Below, one piece after another: positions 554-20,238 of a DNA stretch of 20,238 bases. Numbering within the stretch: position 1 is the first letter of the stretch; every line of letters starts with the position of its first letter. The DNA lies in the IMG/VR virus record IMGVR_UViG_3300013099_000910, positions 1 to 20,238 of that record; one strand, written 5' to 3'. Below the pieces are notes generated by a model. That model was not told the origin of the DNA. It saw only the letters and a program-made list of their open reading frames with translations, and did no database searches. This stretch comes from a virus. Made by a program: the position numbers and the translations under genes.

Positions 554-1501
554 TCAAATACCATAAGGGCATTCTCTCAAATTTTTAGCAATGTCTTCTA
601 TTATACGCCACTCAGCTAGAATGTCAATCCAATGTGTGGGGATGTCTTTATATCCATAGTATGCCCCTGCCAATTGACCACAAATGGCAGCGGTGGTATC
701 AGCATCATCCCCAAGGTTTGCGGCTAATAAGCAACCGTGTTTAAAGTTTTTACTGTGATAAAAAGCCCATAATGCAGCTTCTAATGATTCTACAACATAC
801 CCAGTTCCCTTAATCGCTGGTGGTTGTTTAAGTTTATAAGAACCTTTAGAAATTTTTTCTATTTTGTGGTCTAATTCACCCTCGTTCCAATTGGTTAAGC
901 CGTGGGAACGATAAAGCTCAGACAATATGACTTCTTTAGATTCACCATGTAATGCGGCAACGATTAAACCAGCATACATTTTACAAGCATCTATACACTT
1001 AACGCTCCCATGCGTTGTCACAGACGACTTCCCTGCCATTTTTATTCCTAATAAGGGGTCTAATGCGAAAGCCATAGGAATAGGTGCTAATCGCATCAGT
1101 GACCCGTTACCGGAATCCTCTTCCTTTGAATTACATACCATGCCCGATTCTGGGTCATTATATTTTTCGAAATAGTTTAAAGCGGTAGATGTTGTATAAC
1201 CAATATCAAAACATTCTCCGTTTGAACTCATGTACCCTTCGCTACGCCATCTACAATAACGTTCTAATTGGTCTACACCATCAAAATCTTGTTTCTCTAT
1301 TAAACTGGTTCCTAAGCATAATGCCATTGAGGTATCGTCAGTCCACTCACCAGCGTCTAAATAGAAAGGTCCACCTCCGACAATTTCTGTTAATGGTTTG
1401 TCTATCAAGTTGGGGGAAGTAAATTCCAAAGTGGTTCCTAAAGCGTCGCCACAAGCTAAACCTACCAAAGCACCTAAATATCTATTTTCTGTTTTACCCA
1501 T
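554..1501 (-). CDS. ADP-ribosylglycohydrolase (DraG/ARH family)
   Basis: The protein (315 aa, normal family length) should hydrolyse ADP-ribose from a modified protein or nucleic acid using two Mg2+ ions. Family motifs occur in order: GDALG (18-22), WTDDTSMAL (53-61, metal-binding TDDT), GNGSLMR (131-137), TTHG (162-165) and NLGDDADTTAA (262-272, the second metal site). All core acidic residues are present, so it looks active. Its ATG shares the last base of the terminase stop (TAATG), meaning translation is coupled to the large terminase and it is probably made late. Phages use such enzymes to reverse host ADP-ribosylation or to regulate NAD-linked chemistry; which applies here is inference. 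No signal peptide. Confidence 0.93.
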   Translation of the reverse strand: MGKTENRYLGALVGLACGDALGTTLEFTSPNLIDKPLTEIVGGGPFYLDAGEWTDDTSMALCLGTSLIEKQDFDGVDQLERYCRWRSEGYMSSNGECFDIGYTTSTALNYFEKYNDPESGMVCNSKEEDSGNGSLMRLAPIPMAFALDPLLGIKMAGKSSVTTHGSVKCIDACKMYAGLIVAALHGESKEVILSELYRSHGLTNWNEGELDHKIEKISKGSYKLKQPPAIKGTGYVVESLEAALWAFYHSKNFKHGCLLAANLGDDADTTAAICGQLAGAYYGYKDIPTHWIDILAEWRIIEDIAKNLRECPYGI

Positions 1502-4356
1502 TAAAATATCATTGGCATCGCAGCCCCTTCACCGTTTTCGTTATATGATTCTTCGCCAGAAAAGTAATCTCCTGACATATTTTCTTCCATCATAGCATAA
1601 GCTTCGTCGTTATACTGAATTATTTCTTCTAAAACTCGAATAACGATAAGAAGTGCGGAAATACAATCATCCGTTCCCCCAGGTTGAGCCTCATATGATG
1701 TTCTAGTTCTAATGAAATTTTTAAACTCAAACAACAGTTGTTGGGATTTGATAGTGATCTTACCACTCTCAAACATTTCTCTAAGTTTGATACACGCTTT
1801 GATTTTAGCCTTATTAGTGGTTGTGAACCCTTCACGCTTACTATCAGCCTGTGTAATAAATTCTGCATGTTCAGGAGAGTTTTCGTCGTTTTCTATGCAC
1901 ACTAACAACCCTTCCCCGATACCATTATTTTCTGAACTGTAAAAAATTTCACAACCCACACGTTCCATCATGTTCAAAATACCTTTTAACGCTTGGTATA
2001 GTTGGGTAGTGTTGCAAGTGTTAGAACGAAATTCACCGACTTGTATCATAGCAGGAAATTCGAAAACTTCTATAACGGAAAAATCGCTATCTATTCCAGT
2101 GCTGGGGTCAACCCCTACAATGTAAGATTTTGCTGGGTCGAAATTGTCCCATAGTTTGAACTCTTTTAACTCTTGTATGTGTGGATATGTTTTGATAGTG
2201 GAAAGTATCAAACTACTAATCAACATTGATTCGCTTGATAAGAAATGACACATATGTTCTTGTAAGAATTTCTCTTCACCGATTCTCATGACTTCACTTC
2301 GTTTCCAAGCTTCATCACGTTCTGGTACATCAGTCCAAAGATATTTTTTAAATACAAATTCGTTTGTTTTTGCTTCTGAAGCTCTTGCTAACTGAGCAAA
2401 CAAATTCATATCTCCGTTAGGAGTAGATGCCACGATGCAGGAACCACCAGTATTACTCCCCAAAATCCCATTTTGTAAAAATGTGTGTGTGTTCGGGACT
2501 GTAAAATCGTAGGTTTTATTAGTGGATGGTGTTATGGTTTTGATCTTATCCCATATACAACGATACCCCAATAATTCACGAAACATATCGCTATAACCAG
2601 CAGCACAATCATAGTCTTTTGTTAAATCGTGAAATTTACTTAACCACCTTATAGTGCATGTTCTGTTTGTGGATTTATCAAATACTTTATCTAATCTACA
2701 ACCGTTATCCCTAAACCATTTTTTGGTTTTACCACAAGAGCGGACTATATCAGCAATGACATTTTTGATTGTACCAAACGGGATGATCTTCTGTTTATAA
2801 TCATCTTGTGGATAAGTTGAAATACATTCGTCTAATTTTTGTTTTTTGTAATTAATATGGAAGCCCACAAATTTTTTAAACTTTTTAGCGTTAGAGCGTG
2901 AGATATTCAAACCCCAACTATCTCTTAATGATTGTACTGGTTTGCCTTGTGGTAACAATCGTCCATTTTTTCGTTCTCTTAATAATATTTTCTCTGAATC
3001 ATTTTTAACTATCGTGGTAAGGATTCCAAAATTGGTCAACAATAATTGCACTTCTTGTATAAGTTTCCTGCTGGTAGATGTTAAATTAATACCCTTGTCT
3101 ACGGTGATGCTACCATCACCATCGTATAATCCTCGTAGAAACATACCCACGGTTTTCCCATCGGATTCCATAATATATCGTGGAATAACTTTATCGTAGC
3201 ATTTTTTAGTAAAATCTATTCCATATTCAGACTCCCAAAGTCTGCATTCGTCTACACCAAACTTTCTAATTTTATGAGATTGGTTTGGGTCATCACTGAA
3301 TCCGTTTCGGTAATATATTTCTCGAAAATCAGAGTTAACGTTTGCTATGTATATTGCCGAATTTACGCGCTCATTATTGGCATTCTTGAAATGAGAAGCC
3401 CACCCTTCTGCTATATAACCGCCCAACATATAAGCAGTATCATCATTTAATGATGCAATACCAAAATGATTCATACCATAATCAATTCTTAAATAATTAT
3501 CGGTAGTTAAATTTTTAGCTTGTTCCATATCAGGATTTTCTGATAATGTATATAATGGATGATCGTGTGTCACTTCTAACATGAAACCTCGTTGGGTTTC
3601 AATGATTAATGTGTCACTTTTTGGTGATACGTAACCATGCGATAAAGGTTCTATACCATTCTTACCATAAACCTCAACACCATCTATTTCAAAATAATCT
3701 CCGACATTTCGGTTTACATGAAAACTATCTATACGTTCATAACCGTTTTTTGTTAATATTAAGGTATCACCAGTTACACAGGATAATGTTGGTGATAATG
3801 CAGCCCAAAATTCTTGCTGAATGTTATCTCTAACAAACGCAAGCTCGTCTGCGAATACAATGGATAAAGATAACCCCCTTGCGGACGATTCTGATGTGGC
3901 TCTTGATATAACACGGCAACCGTTATCAAAACCTACAGATTTTTTATTCCACCCATCGGAAGTAACCCCAGGTTTCAACCATTTAGGTAAGTATTCGTAC
4001 ATGACCTGAATACGGTGAATAAATTCAGTAGCGTTGGATTCTTTGTTAGATACAATTAGAACAGTTTTATGTTCTTCAAACGATGCGTACCATAGAAAAA
4101 ATGCAGCAGCACATGTGGTTTTACCCAACTGTCTTGAACAGAGTGCAAGTGTGAAACGATTGTTCACAAACGAATGTATCAAATCTTCTTGATAAGGGTA
4201 TAGAGCGAAATCTATAATACCTCGTGTCGGATGTTCAATTTTACAATATTCTTTTATAAAGTATATTGGGTCGCGTTCACATCGTTCTAAATCTATTAAG
4301 TTTTCAGGTTTAAAAGCTACTAATTCATTAGCGCGTTTAACGTTATTTCCAGCCAT
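1501..4356 (-). CDS. terL: Terminase large subunit (T4 gp17-like) interrupted by an intein
   Basis: This is the DNA-packaging motor: an N-terminal ATPase and a C-terminal RNase H-fold nuclease that cuts concatemers and pumps DNA into proheads. The open frame is 951 aa; removing the intein (residues 193-635) leaves 508 aa. Walker A is CSRQLGKTT (73-81), Walker B SIVFADE (165-171), and a TPNGD segment follows the intein. Nuclease residues are D750 in GVDPSTGID, the acidic SSENNG region near 807-812 and D896/D897 in GTDDCISA. The start ATG has GAGGA 6 nt upstream and a late promoter at 4378-4385. The stop overlaps the ADP-ribosylglycohydrolase start. The intein sits in PTLS/TGGS, next to the ATPase coupling motif, so packaging depends on splicing. 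Confidence 0.96.
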   Translation of the reverse strand: MAGNNVKRANELVAFKPENLIDLERCERDPIYFIKEYCKIEHPTRGIIDFALYPYQEDLIHSFVNNRFTLALCSRQLGKTTCAAAFFLWYASFEEHKTVLIVSNKESNATEFIHRIQVMYEYLPKWLKPGVTSDGWNKKSVGFDNGCRVISRATSESSARGLSLSIVFADELAFVRDNIQQEFWAALSPTLSCVTGDTLILTKNGYERIDSFHVNRNVGDYFEIDGVEVYGKNGIEPLSHGYVSPKSDTLIIETQRGFMLEVTHDHPLYTLSENPDMEQAKNLTTDNYLRIDYGMNHFGIASLNDDTAYMLGGYIAEGWASHFKNANNERVNSAIYIANVNSDFREIYYRNGFSDDPNQSHKIRKFGVDECRLWESEYGIDFTKKCYDKVIPRYIMESDGKTVGMFLRGLYDGDGSITVDKGINLTSTSRKLIQEVQLLLTNFGILTTIVKNDSEKILLRERKNGRLLPQGKPVQSLRDSWGLNISRSNAKKFKKFVGFHINYKKQKLDECISTYPQDDYKQKIIPFGTIKNVIADIVRSCGKTKKWFRDNGCRLDKVFDKSTNRTCTIRWLSKFHDLTKDYDCAAGYSDMFRELLGYRCIWDKIKTITPSTNKTYDFTVPNTHTFLQNGILGSNTGGSCIVASTPNGDMNLFAQLARASEAKTNEFVFKKYLWTDVPERDEAWKRSEVMRIGEEKFLQEHMCHFLSSESMLISSLILSTIKTYPHIQELKEFKLWDNFDPAKSYIVGVDPSTGIDSDFSVIEVFEFPAMIQVGEFRSNTCNTTQLYQALKGILNMMERVGCEIFYSSENNGIGEGLLVCIENDENSPEHAEFITQADSKREGFTTTNKAKIKACIKLREMFESGKITIKSQQLLFEFKNFIRTRTSYEAQPGGTDDCISALLIVIRVLEEIIQYNDEAYAMMEENMSGDYFSGEESYNENGEGAAMPMIF
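2452..3780 (-). other. Intein with LAGLIDADG homing endonuclease inside terL
   Basis: A 443-residue protein-splicing element, terL residues 193-635. It starts at Cys193 (block A, CVTGDTLILT). Block B is EVTHDHPLYT with the T263/H266 pair, block F is YDFTVPNTHTF with H624, and block G ends NGILGSN before Thr636 (+1 nucleophile). The two dodecapeptide motifs are MLGGYIAEG (310-318, E317) and LRGLYDGDG (407-415, D414); both acidic residues are kept, so the endonuclease may be active. The penultimate residue is Ser rather than the usual His, a variation found in some functional inteins. Boundaries follow from the terminase match on each side. Confidence 0.93.
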
Positions 4357-4377
4357 ATAAAGTCCTCGTGTATGAGG

Positions 4378-4385
4378 TATTTATG
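4378..4385 (-). promoter_or_regulatory. T4-type late promoter (CATAAATA) for terL
   Basis: CATAAATA on the minus strand, 22 nt before the terL ATG, one base from the T4 late consensus TATAAATA. A C-rich tract (plus strand G7-A-G5, 4394-4406) lies just upstream. A CCTC/GAGG pair flanks the leader and includes the ribosome binding site. Confidence 0.6.
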
Positions 4386-4440
4386 GCTAGAAGGGGGGGA
4401 GGGGGTTATTTACATTTGAGAAATATAATTAATCGCAATG

Positions 4441-9215: not shown

Positions 9216-9806
9216 TTAGCTAATGTCGATTTGATTCCAAGGAGTTTCAGATAAAAGCTTTATAGCGTAATTTCTACCCCAACCTTTTATTGGACTTTCA
9301 GTGAAAAGTGTTTTGTTTTTCAAAACAAAGGGGCGACCATTTACACGAGTAAAAAATTCACCATTTTCACCAAAAATAGGATTGTTAAGTTTAATAACGT
9401 TATCAAAACCTGGGAAATTAGAATCGTTGGTTCCTATCAACTCGCCAGTCTTACCACCTTTTTCAACAAATAGAATTGAATCTTGGTCAAATTCAGCACC
9501 TAACGATTTAAGATTTTTTCTTAAATCGTTTCGATCACTTAAATCGACAACCAAATATACTTCTTCACCAACTTCAACTGCGGCAGGTGATTTGAAATTT
9601 TCGATGTATGAACCCTTTACAGCAGTAACACCGTATCTATATCGTGACAACTTAGCAAGTAAGGACTTATTACGTTGACGATTTTCATGCCTAGTATATT
9701 CACTACGAAACGCTGTGATGGTTCCGATTGCGTGTTTTTGTGATTGTCGATACACTCTACTTAAAGAGCTTTCTACTAAAAATTCTGCGAAAGTTTGTTC
9801 TGACAT
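9216..9806 (-). CDS. Conserved phage protein with DUF3293-like N-terminal half, 196 aa
   Basis: The N-terminal half reads HAIGTITAFRSEYTRHENRQ, then RNKSLLAKLSRYRYGVTAVKG, then EVGEEVYLVVD. This follows the pattern of DUF3293-type proteins (TAxxP/R...N..RN..L...L...G......G.......E.SF.V), where the role is unknown. The second half carries GAEFDQDSILFVEKGG and LIGTNDSNFPGFDNV, which I have no family for. It is preceded by a T4-type late promoter in a hairpin that includes its AGGT ribosome binding site, so it is probably a late protein. The DUF match is my recollection and low in certainty. Confidence 0.8.
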   Translation of the reverse strand: MSEQTFAEFLVESSLSRVYRQSQKHAIGTITAFRSEYTRHENRQRNKSLLAKLSRYRYGVTAVKGSYIENFKSPAAVEVGEEVYLVVDLSDRNDLRKNLKSLGAEFDQDSILFVEKGGKTGELIGTNDSNFPGFDNVIKLNNPIFGENGEFFTRVNGRPFVLKNKTLFTESPIKGWGRNYAIKLLSETPWNQIDIS

Positions 9807-9813
9807 GATAAGT

Positions 9814-9850
9814 ACCTGTAAGTTATGAGTGTATTTATATTCTAACAGGT
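9814..9850 (-). promoter_or_regulatory. Late promoter (TATAAATA) in the loop of an RBS-covering hairpin
   Basis: TATAAATA lies at 9832-9839. Flanking arms on the minus strand are ACCTGTTAG (9842-9850) and CTTACAGGT (9814-9822): 6 bp, one T-T mismatch, then 2 bp. The downstream arm carries the AGGT ribosome binding site of the gene starting at 9806. This is the same design as T4 late genes that are silent in early read-through RNA. Confidence 0.65.
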
Positions 9851-13490: not shown

Positions 13491-13518
13491 ATTATACACG
13501 AAACAGTTAAAATAGCAA
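13491..13518 (-). promoter_or_regulatory. Sigma70-like early promoter for the helicase operon
   Basis: Minus strand TTGCTA (13513-13518), 16-bp spacer, TATAAT (13491-13496), lying over the end of the methyltransferase at 13507-14526 and about 38 nt before the ATG at 13453. It shares the 16-bp spacer of three other promoters in the window but lacks the CAACTTAAAC leader. Confidence 0.7.
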
Positions 13519-14526
13519 CGCCCCTGCTATTTTTTTGATTAACAATGGTGGTATACCTGAACACCGTTCATACTGTTTACTCCACGGTACAACATCGGCA
13601 AAACTATACCAATCTGGTACAGTTTGCAACCGTAAACACTCTCGAACGGTAAATCGTCTACAACCTTTAACACTACCATCTTGGTATTTATCACTTAAAT
13701 CAACCAGTTGAGAGTTAAACTTCCCATTCATAGTTGACGTTATTGTATAAGCATAAGAATCGAATGCGATTTTTCTCAAATACCCAGTTTTACCGCCACC
13801 AGAATAATAAGAATTCCCCATAAATTTTTTCTGGGAATCTATTGAAATATCTGTCCAGTTGCCACCTATAGGAACTTCATCTATAAAAGCAGCTTCATCC
13901 GGTCTAACACCGTATCCATAATGATTTTTAATGTTTACGTTTATAGCTGGTTCCGGCAAGTCTCCTATGGTGGTTCTGATAGTAACATATTCATCTTTAG
14001 AGTGTGTAGCGTCGGGGAACTGATATGTGTCGCCTAAAGATGCCACTAATATAACTCTTTCACGCTTTTGAGGTATCCCATATTCTAAGCAGTTTGTCAA
14101 TTTCCACGATGTGATATATCCCAACTCATACAAGCTGGCTATGAAATCATAAAAAACATTTTGGTGGTTTTTGGACACAATACCCTTTACGTTTTCAAAA
14201 ATGACATACTTTGGTTTTTTATATTTTATGATGTTATAAAATTCATAGATTAGATTACCATGCTTTTTATCATTAACACCTTCACCTTTTCCAGCAAACG
14301 AAAACGGCAAACACGGTACACCACCTATTATAATATCTGAATCTGGTATGGTTTTATAATCTAGGGTTTCAACATTACCTAAGACCGCATGGTTGCCAAT
14401 GTTCGCATTATAGGTCGATACTGCATAAGGGTTATTATCCACAGCATACAATATATCATATCCTAATTCTTTAAGCCCTACTGCCCCTATACCTGCGCCA
14501 CAAAAAATTTCGACTACGGTTGGCAT
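13507..14526 (-). CDS. DNA (cytosine-5-)-methyltransferase with altered motif X
   Basis: A C5-cytosine DNA methyltransferase, 339 aa. Motif I is EIFCGAGIGAVGLK (6-19), motif IV GGVPCLPFSFAGKGEG with catalytic C72, motif VI IFENV (109-113) and motif VIII PQKRERV. The variable target-recognition region follows, with SYYSGGGKTGYLR reminiscent of the HaeIII-type group, then RRFTVRECLRLQTVPDW (motif IX). Motif X, normally QYxQxGNAVPPLL, reads QYERCSGIPPLL: the Gly-Asn that lines the methyl-donor pocket is Cys-Ser. Its start overlaps the CmoA-like gene by 13 nt. It likely protects phage DNA from host restriction or installs a modified base. The specificity cannot be read from sequence. Confidence 0.93.
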   Translation of the reverse strand: MPTVVEIFCGAGIGAVGLKELGYDILYAVDNNPYAVSTYNANIGNHAVLGNVETLDYKTIPDSDIIIGGVPCLPFSFAGKGEGVNDKKHGNLIYEFYNIIKYKKPKYVIFENVKGIVSKNHQNVFYDFIASLYELGYITSWKLTNCLEYGIPQKRERVILVASLGDTYQFPDATHSKDEYVTIRTTIGDLPEPAINVNIKNHYGYGVRPDEAAFIDEVPIGGNWTDISIDSQKKFMGNSYYSGGGKTGYLRKIAFDSYAYTITSTMNGKFNSQLVDLSDKYQDGSVKGCRRFTVRECLRLQTVPDWYSFADVVPWSKQYERCSGIPPLLIKKIAGALLF

Positions 14527-15155
14527 TTATACACTACCCACGCTTTAAAATTATAGCTTTGCCATATCTGCTCATACTGTCCGATACTATTTAATTCTTC
14601 TATCATCTTATCGTCGTCTAAACAAAACATTGACCCAAATAGTTCATAATCTTTGTCTAATATTTCTGTATCGGTGAATGATTTTCTTTTTTGGTGGACA
14701 TGTTCTCTAGTCAAAATCGAATTGACTCTTGCGGATTTGGAAAAAACTTTTTCTGCTATGATTAGTGTTGTACCATTGGCGACTAGACGACGTAATTCAT
14801 CTACGACCTTTTTGCGTTTGATATTTCCTAGAAATTGAAGGGTGAAAACAGATATTACAACATCTATACTTTTAGTATTGGCTGTCAAAAATGTTAAACA
14901 GTCAGCTTCGTAAAACGTGAACGGATAACCGTCGCACATCCTAACCTGATCGACTCCTATGTATTCGCCCTCTGTGATGTTCTGGAAGGATTTTAATAGT
15001 TTGCCAGTGCTGCAACCCACATCAACGCAAACACCGTGTGGCGGCATATATTCTTTGAATATTGAAGTGGTAACATCTACTAGCCCATCATAATTTGGGA
15101 TGGATAGACTTATATGCTTATCGAAATCTTTTATAGATGCAAAGTCAAATTTCAT
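14514..15155 (-). CDS. CmoA-like class I SAM methyltransferase
   Basis: The 213-aa protein has the Rossmann motif VDVGCSTG (44-51) and an overall match to the tRNA-modification protein CmoA. The matching landmarks are ISLSIPNYDGLVDV (CmoA RSVPGYSNII), FTLQFL (104-109, identical), LIIAEKVFS (CmoA LVLSEKFS), a QKR...FTDTEILDK region and IWQSYNFKAWVVYK (CmoA LWFQCFNFGSLVALK). CmoA makes carboxy-SAM from SAM and prephenate. By my recalled alignment the CmoA Arg199 that holds the carboxylate is Asp here, so it may be a conventional methyltransferase or use another donor. It sits between two cytosine methyltransferases with overlapping ends, implying a joint role in DNA modification. Confidence 0.85.
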   Translation of the reverse strand: MKFDFASIKDFDKHISLSIPNYDGLVDVTTSIFKEYMPPHGVCVDVGCSTGKLLKSFQNITEGEYIGVDQVRMCDGYPFTFYEADCLTFLTANTKSIDVVISVFTLQFLGNIKRKKVVDELRRLVANGTTLIIAEKVFSKSARVNSILTREHVHQKRKSFTDTEILDKDYELFGSMFCLDDDKMIEELNSIGQYEQIWQSYNFKAWVVYKCQP

Positions 15156-16029
15156 TATCGAATTGTTGAATTAGGTCGCCAATGTATTTTATAACGGGTA
15201 CGGTCATACCATTACAGGTGAATTGTTGTGTAACGCTTAAATCGGTGTCATCAAACCAATCATCGGGGAAACCTTGTAATTTTAAACGTTCGGTGGGTGT
15301 GACTCTTCTAAGTATATCATTCATAAGAACAAGATCAGTAAAGTCCTTATAGTCGCGCTTCATTAATGTGCTACTTAATCCAGTGCAAGCGAATTGGTCA
15401 CTACGTTGTCTAGTAAAAAAGGCAAAGGGAACTTCGACTTCTGTGTTCTCAGTGAAATCCCATTCAAAGCTTTTGTTGATAAAGTCCATTTCGGATTTGA
15501 GGTTGGGATTATTACGCTTCCCAAGTTGGAACAAATCGGATTCAGGGGGGATTCCATCACGCACCCCAACAATGTAAACTCTACGTCTACGCTGTGGGAC
15601 TCCAAAGTACTTTGAATCAAACATTGTCCACGTCGCATCGTACCCGATTTCGGCAAGGTCTTGTAAGATAACATCAATTCCTCTGCTAAGGATGGCACTG
15701 ACGTTCTCAATAATCGCATATTTTGGTTTTGCTTCACTTATTAATCTCTTATATTCTTTCCATAAACTAGAATCTTTTCCTTCTATACCACCACCTTTAC
15801 CAGCATGGGAAATTTGTGTACAAGGGAAACCGCCACATAAGACATCATATTTGTCTGGTTCAACGGTTAATTCTAAAACATCGTTGACTATATTAACACC
15901 ATTAAAGTTCTTACGTAAAACTTTTCTACAATAGTCTTCAATTTCGCACATAGTAACGATTTCCATACCAGCTTCTCGTAAGCCTAATTCGAAGCCTCCT
16001 ATACCACTAAACAATCCTAATACTTTCAT
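15145..16029 (-). CDS. DNA (cytosine-5-)-methyltransferase, second copy, variant motif X
   Basis: A C5-cytosine DNA methyltransferase, 294 aa. MKVLGLFSGIGGFELGL is motif I, GGFPCTQISHAGKGGG motif IV with C70, IIENVSAIL motif VI, PQRRRRVYIVG motif VIII, and RRVTPTERLKLQGFPDDW motif IX. Motif X reads QQFTCNGMTVPVI: Asn is kept but the preceding Gly is Cys. It belongs to the phage Dcm-like group and is clearly different from the methyltransferase at 13507-14526. The ATG at 16029 is chosen because it overlaps the previous stop and starts motif I directly; a longer frame to 16074 adds only an unrelated MGNRTRSKRW extension. Confidence 0.93.
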   Translation of the reverse strand: MKVLGLFSGIGGFELGLREAGMEIVTMCEIEDYCRKVLRKNFNGVNIVNDVLELTVEPDKYDVLCGGFPCTQISHAGKGGGIEGKDSSLWKEYKRLISEAKPKYAIIENVSAILSRGIDVILQDLAEIGYDATWTMFDSKYFGVPQRRRRVYIVGVRDGIPPESDLFQLGKRNNPNLKSEMDFINKSFEWDFTENTEVEVPFAFFTRQRSDQFACTGLSSTLMKRDYKDFTDLVLMNDILRRVTPTERLKLQGFPDDWFDDTDLSVTQQFTCNGMTVPVIKYIGDLIQQFDNEI

Positions 16030-16343
16030 AAAATCCAATGTGAACCATCTTTTTGATCGAGTCCTATTACCCAAGATATAGGACGATTTTTGTTAATGTT
16101 ATCTTGATAGGTTTCTTTGATTTTTGGTTTAACACCAGTATCTTTTTCATACCATGCTAAAAATTTATGAGCTTCACAATCTTCTTCAAGATAACAATTT
16201 TTACGTTGCCAATAGCTGTATGATATATCACTTAACTTATCGTTGTCAATGAGTTCGTTGATGTATTGTTTCATGATAGCATTAGCTACTACTAAATATC
16301 CGTGTCCAGCAGTACCTATAAATTTAAAAGTTTTAGATTTCAT
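16026..16343 (-). CDS. Small conserved phage protein, first gene of the methyltransferase operon
   Basis: A 105-aa protein that begins TFKFIGTAGHGYLVV, a pattern I associate with a small phage family of unknown function (F...GT.GHGYL.V). It continues with SYSYWQRKNCYLEEDCEAHKF and a basic centre. AAGGG lies about 7 nt before the ATG. It is the first gene behind the promoter at 16379-16406 and is coupled to the methyltransferase by ATGA. It may be an accessory factor of the modification enzymes, but only position suggests this. Confidence 0.82.
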   Translation of the reverse strand: MKSKTFKFIGTAGHGYLVVANAIMKQYINELIDNDKLSDISYSYWQRKNCYLEEDCEAHKFLAWYEKDTGVKPKIKETYQDNINKNRPISWVIGLDQKDGSHWIL

Positions 16344-19416: not shown

Positions 19417-19563
19417 ATGAAAATTGTAATTTTCTACATCTTTACGGTTCCACCACTGTTACAACATTACTTAACAGATGATACACCGTTTTTTGTTACA
19501 TATACATTTCTGATTATAACAGGTTTGTTCGCGCTATTCCAAGATAAACAGTTAGGAGATTAG
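19417..19563 (+). CDS. Small membrane protein, 48 aa, plus strand
   Basis: The frame MKIVIFYIFTVPPLLQHYL continues through TPFFVTYTFLIITGLFALFQ to DKQLGD: two hydrophobic segments with a DD-containing loop. It starts 9 nt from the divergent minus-strand start at 19407, and its TAG overlaps the convergent stop at 19560, exactly filling the gap. That tight fit supports a real gene. Against it, no ribosome binding site is obvious and no plus-strand promoter is seen; transcription would come from read-through of 18629-19153. Confidence 0.45.
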   Translation: MKIVIFYIFTVPPLLQHYLTDDTPFFVTYTFLIITGLFALFQDKQLGD

Positions 19564-20033
19564 AATTTTCCTATCCAGTAAGCATCTGCTAAATCAGCTA
19601 ACCCAGTTGTCTTTTTATGACCAGACTCTTTAAACTTTGTCATATCATCTTCTGGCACAGACGCTATCATTTCAGTTTTGGTAGCTTTACCGTTATCAGT
19701 TGCGAATTTCTTAACAGCGGTTGGAGCCACAATCTTACATTCCATCGTGAAATCGTTTAAAATATTCGTGATGATGACACCTTGTAAACAGGCTAAATCT
19801 CTTGTCACATTACCACGACTCATACCAAAGCTCAAACCTTCAATGTTTACCGCATCCACGTTATACTGTTGCATTATGTTATGAATGCGTATGTATATCA
19901 TTAAAATCCTTTTAAACAGTGAACCATCGTCTTTAGACGTTTTTATTGTCGCATGGTGAATCATATCACCATCTAAGAATATCACGATGCCAGTGCAGCT
20001 TAACGACTGATCTATACCCATTGTTACTATCAT
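19560..20033 (-). CDS. RuvC-like Holliday-junction resolvase
   Basis: An RNase H-fold junction endonuclease, 157 aa, as for RuvC. The four acidic residues are in place: D8 in GIDQSLSCTG, E65 in VNIEGLSFG, and D147/D150 in GLADLADAYWIG. The basic APTAVKKFATDNGKATKTEM segment matches the RuvC substrate-binding loop (P...KK..TGNG.A.K..M). In T4 the non-homologous gp49 resolves branched DNA before packaging; this enzyme likely fills that role. GAGGGT lies about 6 nt before the ATG at 20033, inside a hairpin that also contains its late promoter. A second ATG at 20021 is possible but lacks this site. Confidence 0.9.
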   Translation of the reverse strand: MIVTMGIDQSLSCTGIVIFLDGDMIHHATIKTSKDDGSLFKRILMIYIRIHNIMQQYNVDAVNIEGLSFGMSRGNVTRDLACLQGVIITNILNDFTMECKIVAPTAVKKFATDNGKATKTEMIASVPEDDMTKFKESGHKKTTGLADLADAYWIGKF

Positions 20034-20038
20034 TTCTA

Positions 20039-20070
20039 ACCCTCATAATCTTTCGACTATTTATAAGGGT
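20039..20070 (-). promoter_or_regulatory. Late promoter and RBS-sequestering hairpin of the resolvase gene
   Basis: TATAAATA is at 20058-20065. ACCCTTATAA (20061-20070) can pair with TTATGAGGGT (20039-20048): 10 bp including one G-U in RNA, with a 12-nt loop. The 3' arm holds the GAGGGT ribosome binding site. RNA starting at the late promoter lacks most of the 5' arm. Confidence 0.7.
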
Positions 20071-20078
20071 CGGAAATG

Positions 20079-20238
20079 TCATTCTAAGGGCGTATTAAGA
20101 TGTATCAGTCGTTCATGTAATTGTTTAGATTCGACATCCAAACAATGTATATAACAGCTTAAAGCATATTTGTAAGCGTCTTCTAACTTTGAAAATTCTT
20201 TTAATGGGATATAACAACGATTTTCAAAGTCCACTACC
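20079..20238 (-). CDS. Hypothetical phage protein, C-terminal part (runs off right edge)
   Basis: 52 codons and a stop are visible. The sequence reads VVDFENRCYIPLKEF, then a helical SKLEDAYKYALSCYIHCLD and ends HLNTPLE. No family is recognised. The gene sits upstream of the resolvase and ends 9 nt before its hairpin, so its transcript would be the read-through RNA that folds the hairpin. No competing frame is better. Confidence 0.6.
   Translation of the reverse strand, partial: VVDFENRCYIPLKEFSKLEDAYKYALSCYIHCLDVESKQLHERLIHLNTPLE

Follow-up and report, generated by a model that had tools for sequence, protein, structure and literature searches.

Why should the ribosome binding site of a Holliday junction resolvase gene lie in a hairpin that overlaps a candidate late promoter? 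The question is raised by a locus at the right end, on the minus strand, of a 20,238-base fragment from an uncultured virus (the whole stretch analysed, called the window here). A first-pass annotation had proposed that this resolvase gene is controlled like gene 49 of phage T4 and that the enzyme is of RuvC type, not homologous to T4 endonuclease VII. The assignment of the enzyme was borne out. The ORF 19560-20033 matched Pfam RuvC (1.1e-8) and PHROG 159 (2.3e-31), its profile matched RuvC chains of crystal structures in the PDB, and in Pfam and PHROG only RuvC families were found, with no homology to gp49 (T4 endonuclease VII). The putative catalytic residues D8, E65, D147 and D150, which we take from their positions to be the RuvC catalytic tetrad, are invariant across 18 relatives, and the start at 20033 agrees with the N-terminus of the relatives (MPILTMGIDQ). 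Judged by its sequence, the resolvase is a member of the RuvC family, for which Holliday junction cleavage is predicted.

A co-directional gene before ruvC, which read-through requires, is present in the window. This upstream ORF, 20079-20237 (-), shares 66% identity over 41 aa with the gene located immediately before ruvC in contig L007, the closest relative (60% identity), in which gp46 lies approximately 1 kb upstream of ruvC. The hairpin begins at the base adjoining the end of the upstream ORF (20079), and because the stop codon of this ORF abuts the hairpin and the two genes have the same direction, its transcript would read into ruvC. In many relatives ruvC follows gp46 (SbcC-like) directly or nearly directly, and in some of them gp47 precedes gp46. 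In T4 the recombination genes gp46 and gp47 are early or middle genes, thus early read-through into ruvC would be expected, and blocking it would be reasonable.

The 10-bp stem burying GAGGGT was found on the minus strand as it had been described (20071-20062, GACCCUUAUA, paired with 20047-20038, UAUGAGGGUU), whereas the extent of the hairpin had been underestimated: two further stems had been missed, one of 6 bp (20078-20073, CAUUUC, with 20036-20031, GAAAUG) in which the start codon itself takes part, and an inner one of 3 bp capped by the GAAA loop. The leader fold of 20078-20031 reads CAUUUC.GACCCUUAUA....GUC-GAAA-GAU / UAUGAGGGUU.GAAAUG, with both GAGGGT and AUG paired in the read-through RNA. 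The minimum free energy, computed on the 56-nt core, was -20.1 kcal/mol (z = -6.5), and none of 200 shuffled sequences was as stable. No Rfam family was matched in the window. The octamer, TATAAATA at 20065-20058, does overlap the other arm, the 5' arm and the inner bulge each holding four of its bases. The features of the locus are listed in Table 1.

Table 1. Features of the ruvC locus at the right end of the window
Feature	Position	Strand	Remarks
RuvC-type Holliday junction resolvase gene	19560..20033	-	157 aa; ATG 20033-20031; Pfam RuvC, PHROG 159
Upstream ORF, co-directional, runs off contig end	20079..20237	-	Stop codon abuts hairpin
Whole hairpin in read-through RNA, 6 bp + 10 bp + 3 bp, GAAA loop	20031..20078	-	MFE -20.1, z -6.5
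5' arm, CATTTC c GACCCTTATA, missing from predicted late RNA	20062..20078	-	Folding, sequence
3' arm, TATGAGGGTT a GAAATG, holds Shine-Dalgarno and start codon	20031..20047	-	Folding
Shine-Dalgarno GAGGGT, buried in 10-bp stem	20039..20044	-	Sequence, folding
T4-type late promoter octamer (candidate) TATAAATA	20058..20065	-	Sequence; enrichment upstream of genes
Predicted late transcription start, within GAAA loop	20052	-	6 nt past octamer; from T4 late promoter geometry

The ruvC leader very probably acts as a switch that restricts expression to the late period. As suggested by folding, RNA reading through from the co-directional gene upstream would fold the Shine-Dalgarno sequence and the AUG into the hairpin and would not be translated. 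Late in infection, by analogy with T4, a gp55-type sigma factor would start transcription about 6 nt past TATAAATA, in the loop. If transcription starts near 20052, the whole 5' arm is lost from the late RNA (AAGAUUAUGAGGGUUAGAAAUG from the predicted start), and ribosomes could bind. If produced early, the resolvase would cut replication and recombination intermediates; its synthesis would instead be timed to the resolution of branched DNA for packaging, a role assumed from T4 gp49. The window has the ribosome binding site paired in read-through RNA, the octamer in the 5' arm with the predicted start downstream, and a computed open ribosome binding site in the late RNA.

To put numbers on this difference, the energy required to make the segment -15 to +3 single-stranded (opening cost) was computed for the long, read-through RNA and for the late RNA. 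The cost fell from 18.8 to 1.7 kcal/mol, which supports, as an inference from sequence, the proposal of the first-pass annotation that read-through RNA is silent and late RNA open. The value for late RNA hardly depended on the choice of start, all offsets of 3-9 nt after the octamer giving 1.5-1.7 kcal/mol, and the value of 18.8 was the highest among all genes called in the window (the next was 16.3). With T4 gene 49 as the yardstick (15.5 to 2.9 kcal/mol), the suggested gene 49 logic found a quantitative match.

The recurrence of the arrangement was studied in relatives of the gene. Single-sequence searches of viral_contigs with the RuvC and TerL proteins of the window yielded no confirmed relatives, and an alignment query was needed, which retrieved 80 ruvC loci from viral contigs; a second query added more. 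XacN1, which has a close helicase relative and gp55, contained no detectable homologue of the window RuvC. Start codons were picked blind to hairpins and redundancy was removed at 90%. A gene was counted as a carrier if its opening cost was at least 10 kcal/mol and the fall at least 6 kcal/mol. By these thresholds, which were chosen after the values had been seen, 17 of 30 ruvC genes (the window and 29 non-redundant relatives) were carriers, compared with 3 among the 162 other genes from these loci (p = 1.2e-13); threshold-free tests gave p = 2e-9 for opening cost and p = 4e-8 for the fall. The octamer was present in 18/30 ruvC leaders and in 34/162 controls, and among the genes having it, 17 of the 18 ruvC genes but just 3 of the 34 controls were carriers. 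Thirteen of the 29 close relatives lacked the combination of octamer and hairpin by this criterion, one of them (L022) narrowly. Among all 66 non-redundant ruvC relatives, of which the more distant belong mostly to phages of unknown transcription type, 18 were carriers. In the N4-like ruvC clade, which is without gp55, no hairpin was found. Among the other genes in the contigs of four relatives, 8 of approximately 354 showed the architecture, including a homing endonuclease gene and a T4-type portal gene.

The ruvC gene of L003 (Alishewanella phage Slickus01) shows the architecture more weakly (8.3 to 0.7), provided that translation starts at the internal ATG used by the relatives; the annotated start of this gene (2938-3510) is probably 51 nt too far upstream, and the ATG at 2989 fits the relatives and has the hairpin. 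In L017 and L013 the octamer is so close to ruvC that the predicted late start coincides with the A of the start codon, which predicts a leaderless late mRNA, with the start codon inside a small hairpin. Clear ribosome binding site hairpins without the TAAATA octamer were seen in the ruvC leaders of L028, L147, L148, L152, L154 and L144; these phages may have a diverged late promoter or another control. Stenotrophomonas phage DLP6, whose ruvC also has a ribosome binding site hairpin without a TAAATA octamer, was not counted.

The hairpin could instead act chiefly as an intrinsic terminator for transcription from upstream, which late RNA escapes by starting inside it; the timing would be the same and the block transcriptional. 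A T-run directly following the stem in L009, L019, L020, L039 and phage CBA120 speaks for this explanation, and in such relatives the block may in part be transcription termination. As the main role of the hairpin it is improbable: the sequence after the stem of the window, ATAGTAACAATG, contains no T-run, and a terminator scan made no call at the site; a clear T-run is absent from most carriers and from T4 gene 49, and the Shine-Dalgarno sequence and the AUG are paired whether or not the stem terminates transcription.

The leaders of the relatives share the design and differ in sequence (for example GCATCCTATATAAATACAGAAAGTTTGTATAGGATGC in L008 and GCGATTCTCCTTTAATAAATAATGTCAAAAGGGAGAATCGC in L034). 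When the arms of 19 loci were swapped computationally, cognate pairs had a mean of 14.3 vs 6.3 for non-cognate pairs, and none of 20,000 permutations matched the cognate sum; selection of this set for having hairpins inflates the test, whereas the count of 17/30 is free of that bias. Identity between loci upstream of the octamer was 26%, which equals chance. That cognate arms pair best while identity is at chance level indicates that the stems were kept complementary while their sequence was replaced. This bears on the idea that a translational repressor, be it the resolvase or a RegA-like protein, uses the hairpin as its operator, with the octamer being incidental. Translational-repressor operators are used by T4 for genes 32 and 43 (PMC3014915), yet for ruvC such control is very unlikely, because no conserved loop or stem sequence is available for a repressor protein to read, the octamer is more frequent in ruvC leaders than in the controls, and from its position the predicted start would leave the 5' arm out of the RNA.

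In T4, late promoters have no -35 element and are made up of an 8-bp TATA box that lies roughly one helical turn before the start (PMC2988020). The number of TATAAATA copies in the window, four vs 3.3 expected, was not significant, and the count by itself was rejected as evidence. Their position was more informative: three of the four sit 25-26 nt before ORF starts, and in the window and the contigs of four relatives TATAAATA tops all 56 octamers that share its composition between -50 and -21 relative to gene starts, with 32 occurrences on the sense strand vs 3 on the opposite strand. No gp55 was identified in the 20-kb window fragment, and the late sigma factor is inferred from the relatives: of the 20 contigs or records that were searched, 12 had a gp55-type factor, in many cases close to ruvC; the closest relative is among these 12, and in the N4-like ones no such factor was found. 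It is most unlikely that TATAAATA works as a sigma-70 -10 element (TATAAA) giving the short RNA early as well, since despite the 5/6 match to TATAAT a promoter scan found no -35/-10 pair at the octamer site, the forms found in the relatives (CTAAATA and ATTAAATA) resemble gp55-type promoters, and many carriers encode gp55.

The ruvC leader, read as a late-only switch, has close counterparts in cultured phages. T4 gene 49 likewise has a late octamer (AATAAATA) that lies ahead of and inside the 5' arm of a hairpin holding the ribosome binding site, co-directional genes upstream and a junction resolvase downstream; the differences are that endonuclease VII is unrelated to RuvC, that the stems have different sequences and that pairing extends to the AUG in the window. 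Reviews credit control by the gene 49 leader to Barth et al. 1988 (PMC3014915, PMC2988022); the comparison made here is based on the T4 sequence and on a review that cites this paper and prints '39' where its reference 60 concerns gene 49. Late genes with a sequestered ribosome binding site also include T4 e, soc, I-TevI/II/III and segB, and mobE of Aeh1 (PMC3014915, PMC2988022). In these, too, a hairpin silences early read-through RNA and its 5' arm carries the late promoter; the products are others, and for e and I-TevI there is experimental demonstration. Among eight Straboviridae or Straboviridae-like phages beyond T4, seven had gene 49 leaders with this architecture. The lone exception was Vibrio phage nt-1, in which the genes upstream of gene 49 are on the opposite strand, so that there is no read-through to block, in agreement with the read-through model.

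RuvC-like resolvases with such leaders were also found in the Ackermannviridae: ruvC of CBA120, LIMEstone1 and 0507-KN2-1 has a 13-15 bp hairpin over the ribosome binding site and an octamer, TCTAAATA or CGTAAATA; for LIMEstone1, the sequence record carries an annotation of a putative late promoter at this place. These enzymes differ from that of the window in belonging to another RuvC subfamily, and in CBA120 and 0507-KN2-1 the stem is followed by a T-run. CBA120 encodes homologues of gp55, gp33 and gp45, and the late promoter of the group was called not identified (PMC3184105); no description of the hairpin was found in that paper.

The first-pass annotation had suggested that what is conserved is the control of timing and not the enzyme, and the recurrence of the device on divergent ruvC genes and on most Straboviridae endonuclease VII genes examined argues for this. 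In some T4 relatives gp49 is replaced by other nucleases (PMC2993671). We lean, by a modest margin of confidence, towards the view that junction resolvases of phages with gp55-type late transcription generally need a switch confining their translation to the late period, which was fixed repeatedly or carried over when the resolvase was replaced, endonuclease VII and RuvC being at least two of the unrelated enzymes concerned, in Straboviridae, Ackermannviridae and many uncultured phages of the T4 superfamily, with the architecture conserved and the sequence not. What looked like a curiosity of T4 gene 49 would then become a rule predicting at which genes, and for what reason, a phage blocks translation, namely where a dangerous late nuclease is sited downstream of early recombination genes (gp47-gp46), and would offer a sequence-independent signature for spotting late-only genes in unannotated phages. 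The device itself is already known. That it recurs on RuvC-type resolvases seems not to have been described, since literature searches lacking most subscription journals found no account of a late promoter combined with a ribosome binding site hairpin on such an enzyme; what is new is the class of enzyme and how widely the device recurs.

Similar hairpins were observed at other genes. The terminase large subunit gene terL of the window, 1501-4356 (-), whose product contains an intein carrying a homing endonuclease domain of the LAGLIDADG type, has a late octamer, CATAAATA (approximately 4378-4385), in a ribosome binding site hairpin in the region 4357-4390 (-), formed by CCTC/GAGG and ATAAA/TTTAT, with an opening cost of 14.9 and a fall of 13.5 kcal/mol. 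The T4-type portal gene of L120, 11335-14466 (-), likewise combines an intein with a late-promoter hairpin over the ribosome binding site. The strongest such hairpin seen precedes a homing endonuclease gene of L129, 14604-16298 (-), with an opening cost of 32.9 and a fall of 31.7 kcal/mol, and echoes the T4 intron endonucleases. Elsewhere in the window, at 9216-9806 (-) and 13507-16074 (-), a S-adenosylmethionine lyase-like gene with its own TATAAATA at 9832-9839 was noted in a phage in which inspection by eye also suggests two cytosine methyltransferases, possibly forming an anti-restriction set.
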